A stretch of DNA of 64,000 nucleotides from Pochonia chlamydosporia 170. Lineage: Eukaryota > Ascomycota > Sordariomycetes > Hypocreales > Clavicipitaceae. Below are positions 22,660-26,315 of the stretch, piece after piece; positions within the stretch are counted from its first letter, which is position 1; each line of letters starts with the position of its first letter. Location of the stretch: the NCBI RefSeq assembly GCF_001653235.2, contig NC_035790.1, forward strand, positions 3,596,001 through 3,660,000, given 5' to 3'. Under the pieces are notes generated by a model. The model was not told where the DNA came from, ran no database searches, and saw only the letters and a program-made list of their open reading frames with translations. A program made the translations under genes and the position numbers.

Positions 22660-23454
22660 CTACACGTCAAAAGACGGCCCGTATTCCTTCTTCATAGCCT
22701 CCCGCACAATCTGACCGCACAGCTTGGCCGTCGGGTTGACACTCACGGCGAGCCCCTTTGCGATCTGATTGCCGTACCGACCACCAAACGCCAAGTCATG
22801 CGAGGCAGCCTGTTCAAACTCCACGCGAGTCCATTTCGCCTCGTCTCGGCTCTCATCGATATCTAACAGACGGTCGGACAGTAATTTGGATGTTCGGAGG
22901 TAGATGGCCGCTCGTTGCGTGTACGCCATGGACAGGGTCCGGGCCGCTTGGGGCGAGATGGGCGTCGACAATGTAGCCGGTGACAACAGGGAAATGGACT
23001 TTTCCAAGTCTTGTAGAGCTCCCACGGCGGCCTTCTTCTTCTCAGAGGCGTCAGGCTGCTCAATCAGTGGCAGAGGCATGCCGGTAGTAATTTCGAGTAG
23101 CATCGCGTCTCCGTACAGCCGCCTCATGATTTGGGCGCGGTTGTTTCGGGCGCTAGCGTAGTTGGGGAATTCTGAAATAAGAGTGTCTAGCTCGGCGAGG
23201 CAGTTTCGGTATCCATTGATGGCTGTTTCGCTTGCATCTTGTGATTGCGATTCACTGAATTCTGTTTCGATGGTCTGGATTTTGGAAATGATGTTACGCT
23301 CTTGCTGGACGACCTTTTCGTAGTCGGTTCCGCTGACGTGAGGATCGCGAGGGAGCGACTCGTCCGTTGTGACACCTGTGGCAGGGTTCGACTCGGGGTC
23401 CTTGATTTTTTCGAGAACGTTGACGTCTCGCGTGCTGAGGTTCACGTACGCCAT
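22660..23454 (-). CDS. TTC36-like tetratricopeptide repeat protein
   Basis: Intronless, 264 residues. It matches the TTC36 family along its length: an N-terminal DVNVLEKIKDPESNP segment (compare the early NPD block of animal TTC36), a TPR with YASARNNRAQIMRRLYGDA, a second with GALQDLEKSISLL, a third with AYTQRAAIYL, and the diagnostic tail VEFEQAASHDLAFGGRYGNQ followed by VNPTAKLCGQIVREAM. It is longer than the animal protein (about 190 residues) because of insertions between repeats. TPRs bind partner proteins. In mammals TTC36 has been reported to protect 4-hydroxyphenylpyruvate dioxygenase from degradation, and its loss causes high tyrosine. The next gene here, divergent at 1.6 kb, encodes that very enzyme, so a role in tyrosine catabolism is a reasonable inference. 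Confidence 0.88.
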   Translation of the reverse strand: MAYVNLSTRDVNVLEKIKDPESNPATGVTTDESLPRDPHVSGTDYEKVVQQERNIISKIQTIETEFSESQSQDASETAINGYRNCLAELDTLISEFPNYASARNNRAQIMRRLYGDAMLLEITTGMPLPLIEQPDASEKKKAAVGALQDLEKSISLLSPATLSTPISPQAARTLSMAYTQRAAIYLRTSKLLSDRLLDIDESRDEAKWTRVEFEQAASHDLAFGGRYGNQIAKGLAVSVNPTAKLCGQIVREAMKKEYGPSFDV

Positions 23455-25085
23455 GTTGTTTCACTCTTCGAAGTGGGGTAGCGCAGTTGGAAGGATGTGA
23501 GATTATAGATCGAGTTTACAACACGACACGGCGACTTTGGTTGTAGAAATTAAAGAGGCGTTGAATCTGACAAATACGTCCTCGAATGTAAACCACAAAA
23601 ATTCGAGGTGGGATGACAGACATTTGAATACTACCACCCGTGGCAATGTTCCGGTACGGCAAGCCGATCGTGGATGTACGGGTTTATCACAGAGCCGCAC
23701 AACAGCGGCAAAGGCGGAACATTGACGCAGGCCACGAAAATAGCCCGAGTCGCAAGCCGGCAGCTCTTCAGTGTGGACCACCAGACAGCAGCATCTCAAG
23801 AAATTGTCTGGGTAGTGGCATCGAAGAACTACCTACTTTTTCCAGCACAGTCCGCCCGCCCCAGCTAGAAGCGGCGCCAGAAGTTGTGGAGAAATGATGG
23901 CACAAACCTCGACGGCGCTGACACGACCACGCCTTGGAATCAAATCACACCCAAATGCTTGAGGTGAAAGTGGGCCGGCAACATACGGCTTACTTCGGCT
24001 GCAGCCGCCGTGCGGAATCGTACCGTGACGGCGGCTCTGCCGGACGTGGAGGGGCCGCTTCGGATCTGATGGAGCGGCTCACGGCGCAAGATGGCAGCAA
24101 GGCAAGGCGAATTTGCTGCGGACATGCACGTAAGTCGTACTTTTGCATGGGATGGTACGACTGATCTCACTGGTGCTGCGGTGAAGGGCCTTTGTTCGTA
24201 GTGGCGATGAAGCAGTATGGCATCAACACGTAAACCTCAGTAGCCTGTAGTACACACGCAAGACAATAGTAGCAGCAAATAAAGACATGTAGCTTTTTAC
24301 CCAAGGCATTCAAGTATTTCAAGTACACAAAATACCCCAGAAACGACGAAAAAAAGACATCCCTAGCTGTCCACTCACCCTCAGCCGATTTACAAGGTCT
24401 CTGAGACAAAGTGATTTCCCCACTAAGCACCGAGCCCGTGCCCATTCCACGCCGGCGTCAAGTCGCCACCCCCCATCTCGGCAGACTTGTTTCTCTGGCC
24501 TCCAAGCTCACCTAGCCCATCCATTCTTAGACCGTGAGATGCCATGGGCGGGGGATTTCCGGGGGGCCAGACAGCGCTCGGCGATGCGGTCCAAGACCCA
24601 ATCGTGGGCGAGAGGTTACGTCTTACGCACCAGAAAACGCCCAAAGGTTACGGCCACTTCGGTATAGAGCCAAAAAATTAATAACAAGGCCCCTCAAAAA
24701 CTGGACTGACGTCTACTTCCTTTTTGTTACATGGAAATGGAATGTGACTGGATTCCATATTAAAAGAGTTGCCCTTCCCGCTACCCCCCCTCGTTAATTT
24801 GTTTTTGTCTTGGTATGTCATACGGATCATCCTCACACCAACCTGCCCTGGTCATAGCTCTTGTCTCTCTGACTGCCACGTTTTGCCCTGCTCGTACGCT
24901 GGGGACAAAGTGTCGATTATAATTCCAGGCACACAAAAAGGAATAGAAGTTGCTAACCGGGGGAAATTTCAGCACCGTTTAGGAAAGGGGGAACTCACAA
25001 AATAGTTGATTAAAAACGAACATTGTGTGTCGTTTTCAACATACCCACCAACAAAACACATTTCATCATCACTTACACACACAAG
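23455..25085. other. Divergent intergenic region between the TTC36-like and HPPD genes
   Basis: 1.6 kb with no supportable gene. The HPPD-proximal part (24990-25085) is A/C-rich, like fungal 5' leaders. Short open frames across 23.5-24.8 kb show no family motifs. Confidence 0.6.
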
Positions 25086-26315
25086 ATGGCACCATCAGCA
25101 GTCTCGCCGCAACAGCGACCCGTCGACTCTGGCGCTGTACAGCCTCCCTCCGGGGGAAACTTCACCGGCTACGACCACGTAACCTGGTGGGTAGGCAACG
25201 CCAAGCAAGCAGCGGCCTACTACGTCAACCTCTTTGGCTTCAAGCACATTGCGTACCGGGGCCTCGAGACGGGCAGCCGGTACTTTGCGTCGTACGTCGT
25301 GGCCAACAACGACGTGCGCTTCGTCTTCACGTCGCCGCTGCGCTCGGCGGTCCACCTGCCCGCCGACGAGGCCATCAGCCCCGAGGACAAGAAGCTCCTG
25401 GACGAGATGTACGCGCACCTGGAGCGGCACGGCGACGCCGTCAAGGACGTGGCCTTTGAGGTCGACAACGTAGAGGGCGTGTACCACAAGGCCGTCAAGG
25501 AGGGCGCCGTCGCGGTGCAAGGCCCGACGCAGTTCCAGGACGAGGAGCACGGCTCCGTCACCACAGCCGTCATCTGCACATACGGCGACACGACGCACAC
25601 GCTCATCAACCGCGGCTCATACACCGGCCCTTTCCTCCCGGGCTTCAGGGAGGGCAAGAAGTCCACCGCCAGCGTGTCCCTGCCGGACGTGAAGCTCGCG
25701 CGTATCGACCACTGCGTCGGCAACCAGGACTGGAACGAGATGGTCTCCGCGTGCGCCTTCTACGAGCAGTGCCTGTCCTTCCACCGCTTCTGGTCCGTCG
25801 ACGACAAGCAAATCTGCACAGAGTTCTCTGCCCTGTCGTCCATCGTCATGGCGTCCCCCAACAACCTCGTCAAGATGCCCATCAACGAGCCTGCCGCGGG
25901 AAAGAAGAAGTCCCAGATCGAGGAGTACGTCATCTTCAACTCGGGCGCCGGCGTCCAGCACATTGCCCTGCTCACGCCGAGCATCATTGACGCAGTTACT
26001 GCTCTGAGGGCCAGGGGCGTCGAGTTCATCAACGTCCCGCAGACGTACTACGACACCATGCGCCAGCGGCTCAAGACGGAGAAGCGCAACTGGGAGCTCA
26101 AGGAGGACCTGGACACCATTCAGCGACTGAACATTCTTATTGATTACGATGAGGGCGGCTACTTGCTGCAGCTGTTCACGAAGCCGTTGATGGATCGTCC
26201 TACCGTCTTTATTGAGATTATTCAGCGTAATGAGTTTGAGGGCTTTGGCGCTGGTAACTTTAAGAGTTTGTTTGAGGCGATTGAGCGTGAGCAGGCGGAG
26301 AGAGGGAACCTGTAA
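25086..26315 (+). CDS. hpd: 4-hydroxyphenylpyruvate dioxygenase
   Basis: Intronless, 409 residues, the normal length. The enzyme turns 4-hydroxyphenylpyruvate into homogentisate in tyrosine breakdown, using non-haem Fe(II) and O2. Two vicinal-oxygen-chelate domains are visible: [20 protein letters not shown] at the N-terminus and [16 protein letters not shown] in the catalytic half. The iron triad is present at His209 (RIDHC), His292 (VQHIALLT) and Glu377 (VFIEIIQR). The C-terminal lid [15 protein letters not shown] is also intact. The start ATGGCACC sits in a good context (ACAAGATGG) after an A/C-rich leader; the frame is open further upstream but without an ATG. The first 970 bases are clearly GC-richer with strong third-position C/G, and the last 250 bases are less biased. 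Tyrosine-pathway partners such as homogentisate dioxygenase are not in the window. The divergent neighbour is a TTC36-like protein. Confidence 0.97.

Follow-up and report, generated by a model that had tools for sequence, protein, structure and literature searches.

The divergent TTC36-like and 4-hydroxyphenylpyruvate dioxygenase genes of Pochonia chlamydosporia are a probable Hypocreales form of the published hppD-hmgX pair

We analysed a window of 64,000 nucleotides from Pochonia chlamydosporia 170 (contig NC_035790.1, positions 3,596,001 to 3,660,000), in which a gene for a TTC36-like protein lies head-to-head with a gene for 4-hydroxyphenylpyruvate dioxygenase (HPPD; gene hppD). The TTC36-like gene, here the hmgX/TTC36-family gene, occupies window positions 22660..23454 on the minus strand. 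It is a single intronless open reading frame (ORF) of 795 bp including the stop codon (ATG at 23454, stop at 22660-22662), and its 264-aa product has a predicted helical-hairpin core and a conserved C-terminal NPTAKLC region. The hppD gene, at 25086..26315 on the plus strand (ATG at 25086, stop at 26313-26315), is also intronless and encodes 409 aa with RGNL at the C-terminus. An intergenic region of 1631 bp (23455..25085) spans the gap between both start codons and presumably holds both promoters. Searched against the genome (44.2 Mb, 49 contigs), each protein matched a single place, within the sensitivity of this search. We read the locus as an ordinary, Hypocreales representative of the published hppD-hmgX gene pair. 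In our best explanation, which we consider likely, the minus-strand protein is the HmgX orthologue, belongs to the TTC36 family and is a dedicated partner of HPPD.

The plus-strand protein is, judging from its sequence, a two-domain vicinal-oxygen-chelate (VOC) dioxygenase, homologous along nearly its whole length to solved HPPDs. Two Pfam models score above cut-off (Glyoxalase PF00903, 64.6 bits; Glyoxalase_4 PF13669, 39.5 bits), and residues 20-409 align with residues 10-381 of PDB chain 5ec3_A at 408.1 bits. This agrees with the first-pass annotation of the DNA, which had named the neighbour as HPPD and whose coordinates for the divergent arrangement were exact. Homologues of the two proteins were compared as lists of the best 120, out of 7996 scored for HPPD and out of 710 at E ≤ 0.001 for the TTC36-like protein (the window protein included). 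The best named relatives of both come from Metarhizium and Conoideocrella.

The NNRAQ and NPTAKLC blocks, noted in the first-pass annotation as shared with TTC36, begin at residues 104 and 240 of the TTC36-like protein and are present in 95 and 119 of the best 120 relatives, respectively. Domain models give only a faint sign of a tetratricopeptide repeat (TPR) protein: the strongest Pfam TPR match scored 14.7 bits against a cut-off of 24.4, and no Pfam family scored above cut-off. TPR models match 26 of 26 mammalian TTC36 members, and some fungal relatives are named "Tetratricopeptide repeat protein 36" or similar at their source (e.g., P0054, P0119, and P0289). In a joint alignment of 19 fungal and mammalian proteins, the invariant columns include L14, P20, P97, A100, S101, N104, N105, R106, Q108, G115, D149, Q180, R181, A217, D220, G228, V237, N240, P241, and L245 (numbering in the window protein). 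Four relatives of 258 aa each (P0296, P0302, P0305, and P0309) and P0304 from Pleopsidium flavum carry an N-terminal NDSAVLxQLFDPE segment; this segment (KDSSVLTQIFDPE in P0304) is closer to the mammalian NDQAVLQAIFNPD than the Hypocreales version is. A scan for relatives in prokaryotes gave seven pattern matches, of which none was confirmed.

We compared a profile of 41 fungal proteins with one of 26 mammalian TTC36 database proteins. They aligned nearly end to end in hhalign (probability 98.5%, E = 3.3e-15, 183 columns, fungal 8-262 to mammalian 3-185), which bears out the end-to-end match proposed from the single sequence, with mixed results in the controls. As controls we used 223 ORFs (80 aa or longer) taken from 15 of 20 loci with TPR or weak matches in the same genome; some of the loci overlap, so some ORFs were counted twice. 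Loci containing the gene pair (L009, L010, and L018) or homogentisate dioxygenase (L011 and L012) were left out. With the fungal profile, 27 mammalian and bird TTC36 proteins scored 33.7-42.2 bits, against 7.6 for the highest-scoring control. The C-terminal part of that profile (210-264) found all 27 (median 22.4 bits; best control 3.4). The window protein alone aligned with the mammalian profile over 119 columns extending to the C-terminus (probability 95.4, E = 1.7e-8); among six TPR control ORFs, aligned over 46-71 columns, the highest probability was 60.0% (E = 8.7e-5). An N-terminal motif was present in 120 of 187 fungal proteins, 22 of 27 mammalian and bird proteins and none of the 223 control ORFs, although it was defined after the alignment had been seen and its form was varied per group.

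Several results weigh against this placement. With the mammalian hidden Markov model (HMM), the window protein scored 31.0 bits and the median over the 187 fungal proteins was 28.9; one multi-TPR control, however, scored 41.2, a value exceeded by only 3 of the 187. The whole-protein score with this HMM alone does not discriminate the window protein from that control. The mammalian C-terminal profile gave the window protein just 10.8 bits (E = 0.12), compared with a median of 12.8 for the fungal proteins and 2.5 for the highest control, and the N-terminal part alone gave nothing significant with profiles in either direction. Reciprocal searching, which the first-pass annotation had named as able to refute family membership, gave a divided answer: the distant fungal member P0302 recovers the window gene (E = 4e-43), but one mammalian TTC36 sequence used as a genome query gave five matches elsewhere (E = 0.03-2.5), and the window gene was not among the four candidates scored. 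Taken together, our analyses predict that the window protein is a true but diverged member of the TTC36 family, separated from generic TPR proteins by most, not all, of the controls.

The predicted structures bear on another reading, in which the protein is a general Hsp70/Hsp90 TPR co-chaperone whose link to HPPD is indirect. AlphaFold 2 (AF2) models had mean predicted local distance difference test scores (pLDDT) of 86.6 for the fungal protein and 75.6 for mammalian TTC36, and their nine main helices match in order. By sequence, the fungal protein weakly resembles the Hip middle domain (E = 0.53). Hip is also the second-ranked fold match of its model (E = 0.054, Foldseek probability 1.00, template modelling (TM) score to query 0.34). 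The mammalian TTC36 model fits much better among the TPR domains of SGT, Hip, and HOP, with 133 fold matches at E ≤ 0.001. Against this, the fungal model matches known folds poorly (TM to query 0.15-0.36 in 50 of the 638 matches; none of the 638 at E ≤ 0.001), and generic TPR ORFs of the same genome stay at or below 7.6 bits with the fungal profile. In addition, the block that Keller et al. 2011 (PMC3203155) describe is specific to the step catalysed by HPPD. We therefore find a general co-chaperone distinctly improbable.

Conservation of the pair was followed by two proxies in the two homologue lists: locus tags and longest contigs of identical size. Locus tags were consecutive in all nine species in which both were visible for one strain. 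These were Conoideocrella (QQS21_012693/012694), four species of Claviceps (E4U55_000532/000531, E4U21_006386/006387, E4U42_006937/006936, and E4U60_005581/005580), Cosmosporella (Fc.00g015720/015730), Fusarium decemcellulare (FDECE_6144/6143), and two species of Ophiocordyceps (XA68_13036/13035 and CDD80_1616/1617). A longest contig of the same size as that of an HPPD row was found for 36 of the 120 TTC36-like rows, 20 of them below 100 kb and five below 10 kb; when contig sizes were shifted by 1-30 bases either way, between 0 and 2 rows matched, with an average of about 0.4 for the 60 shifts. A shared size indicates linkage and says nothing on orientation or exact distance, and the remaining 84 rows are uninformative because the lists hold the best 120 and only the longest contig. 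Of the 24 species in both lists, Ophiocordyceps australis and Stachybotrys chartarum were dropped (tags of different strains), and 21 of the 22 compared had a same-sized contig. The exception is Drechmeria coniospora (P0044 and P0132; longest contigs 11,616,583 and 9,751,215), which may reflect a true break of the pair or two assemblies.

The pair is kept across Hypocreales. Chance adjacency was considered and ruled out by the consecutive tags and the same-sized contigs. Contig matching among wider fungal relatives returned only the already-known Tolypocladium contig, so adjacency outside Hypocreales rests on published papers. With these (PMC3203155), the first-pass suggestion that the pairing extends beyond close relatives is upheld.

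The suggestion that the pair had not been described for fungi was wrong. Both the adjacency in most ascomycetes and, from Aspergillus fumigatus, the dependence of HppD activity on HmgX are in print (Keller et al. 2011, PMC3203155), with follow-up in Penicillium marneffei (PMC4374905). According to the former, hmgX has an intronless 771-bp transcript, encodes no conserved domain and adjoins hppD in most sequenced ascomycetes, in many with a seeming bidirectional promoter. The gene is induced by tyrosine and its product is cytoplasmic. Deletion of hmgX stops the conversion of 4-hydroxyphenylpyruvate to homogentisate and the formation of pyomelanin, and extracts of an hmgX/hmgA double mutant form no homogentisate (PMC3203155). 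In the 2015 P. marneffei study, hpdA/hmgX locus tags are given for eight species, five of them with consecutive tags and one, Blastomyces, with a number between (PMC4374905). In a 2014 survey, cluster types from Eurotiomycetes and Dothideomycetes contain hppD along with hmgX (PMC3914699), AFUA_2G04210 is named hmgX in PMC11595811, and a 2025 review lists hmgX within the cluster (PMC12426039).

Position, size and description make it very probable that the window gene is orthologous to A. fumigatus hmgX. This identity is the weakest step of our reading, as A. fumigatus HmgX was compared by description and not by sequence; among the relatives listed by us (names shown in part), no published hmgX locus tag was visible. 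Other points tell against our best explanation. By their locus tags, P. marneffei and T. stipitatus have hmgA and hypW between hmgX and hpdA, and in macrophages the P. marneffei hmgX mutant does not behave like the hpdA mutant (PMC4374905). The portion of the hmgX literature covered contained no data on binding between the fungal HmgX and HPPD proteins.

The flanks of the pair raise the question of passive synteny. An open stretch with a ribosomal L27e domain (21384..21767, minus strand; Pfam PF01777, 133.5 bits) adjoins the TTC36-like gene, and two open stretches of a Ssl1-like TFIIH subunit (27240..28727, minus strand; Pfam PF04056, 127 and 111.5 bits) lie beyond HPPD; both are context only. 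No tRNA was found in the window by ARAGORN. In one relative, P0111 from Ophiocordyceps camponoti-saundersi, a gene model of 425 aa joins the TTC36-like protein to ribosomal L27e. The join is probably an annotation fusion, and it points to retention of the L27e neighbour in a second genus.

The pair could thus belong to a rarely rearranged Hypocreales block, with a TTC36-like gene that has no special tie to HPPD, and an L27e neighbour in at least one other genus fits that idea. However, in the published accounts available to us, adjacency extends to most sequenced ascomycetes (PMC3203155), A. fumigatus hmgX is followed by hmgA (PMC3203155, PMC4374905, and PMC3914699), and the genes serving as outer flanks in that species encode neither L27e nor Ssl1 but a TIM17 subunit, an asparaginase and two hypothetical proteins. 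The deletion phenotypes also link HmgX to HppD (PMC3203155). In the window genome, homogentisate dioxygenase (HgmA_C) matches lie at C1:4872340-4872813 (231.5 bits), 1.25 Mb from the pair on the same contig, and at C4:3828717-3829184 (139.8 bits) on another contig. The pair therefore persists where that part of an Aspergillus-type cluster has dispersed. We find passive synteny rather improbable.

Mammalian TTC36 is also called HBP21, and its human gene is not known to neighbour that of HPD, the human enzyme. In the accessible part of a 2019 paper (PMC6753076), binding of mammalian TTC36 requires the VOC2 domain of HPD, TTC36 lowers the phosphorylation of HPD T382 by STK33 and PELI1-driven degradation, and TTC36 knockout mice have low HPD and tyrosinemia. 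The fungal protein might likewise shield HPPD from phosphorylation and ubiquitin-dependent degradation. The mammalian precedent (PMC6753076) favours such shielding, and a different fungal degron is possible. However, RGNL terminates all 120 of the best HPPD homologues, every named one of which is fungal. In the alignment its counterpart is residues 378-381 of 5ec3_A, a chain of 393 residues that we take to be human, so that T382 and its FHA motif are predicted to fall just past the fungal end. As these closest HPPDs stop before T382, the mammalian T382/PELI1 route cannot operate in these fungi, and the mammalian mechanism cannot be transferred as it stands. Pellino gave no match in the window genome, but it gave none in a control genome either, and the result carries no weight. 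We regard shielding from degradation as unlikely.

A second region of HPPD bears on the partner. Residues 86-106 of the window protein include 12 + 4 residues that are absent from 5ec3_A and from the mammalian HPD chains shown. They are probably the ascomycete-specific stretch of 13 residues that Keller et al. proposed might be the HmgX interaction site (PMC3203155, in part). PDB chain 8jbw_A carries a similar stretch, and the insertion may occur outside ascomycetes as well. Since mammals possess TTC36 although their HPD is without the stretch, not every TTC36-family partner needs it.

We propose that the TTC36-like protein would bind HPPD, probably on the C-terminal catalytic VOC domain by analogy with mammals. 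The bound partner would keep HPPD folded, assembled or active, and the enzyme thus maintained would convert 4-hydroxyphenylpyruvate to homogentisate. The chaperone or stabiliser mode is inferred, and such binding is the more likely common core of the fungal and mammalian functions. It is reasonably probable, in our view, that TTC36 and HmgX form a single family that predates the fungus-animal split and serves HPPD as a dedicated factor for folding or activation. Its gene would stand beside the enzyme gene in fungi, and the T382/PELI1 route would be a later addition on a C-terminal tail absent from the fungal HPPDs examined.

That HmgX and TTC36 are one family seems to be the new element and apparently undescribed. 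Our literature search, which leaves most subscription journals outside it, found no paper naming both HmgX and TTC36, none that by title links HmgX with tetratricopeptide, and by title only the 2019 paper on TTC36 and hydroxyphenylpyruvate. Two separate fields seem to be studying one ancient HPPD helper. If HmgX is TTC36, fungal tyrosine and pyomelanin research, in which HmgX is an accessory factor of unexplained mechanism, joins the mammalian tyrosinemia work on TTC36 and the T382 phospho-degron. In that case the partner could not generally depend on the ascomycete-specific HppD insertion. Herbicides and drugs are directed at HPPD, for which a conserved accessory factor would offer a second point of attack. 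A fungal growth assay on tyrosine could take human TTC36, making the ancestral function testable. The printed statement of Keller et al., as far as their text was available, that human, C. elegans and Dictyostelium have no HmgX homologue (PMC3203155) would be wrong for human.

Among known systems, the closest is HmgX (AFUA_2G04210) in the A. fumigatus cluster hppD-hmgX-hmgA-fahA-maiA-hmgR. The window gene resembles it in standing beside hppD, in being intronless and of similar length (771-bp transcript and about 256 aa, against 795 bp and 264 aa here), and in having no domain above cut-off and one match in the genome; it differs in that the homogentisate dioxygenase matches lie away from the pair. 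Mammalian TTC36 shares the near end-to-end profile alignment, the NNRAQ and NP-x-A-x-LC blocks, nine helices in the same order, and HPPD as the reported partner enzyme. The fungal protein differs from it by longer insertions and by TPR units below the Pfam cut-offs, and its partner HPPD is without the T382 tail. The TPR co-chaperones Hip, HOP, and SGT share the helical-hairpin repeat architecture predicted for the fungal protein but have no discriminating sequence match to the fungal family.

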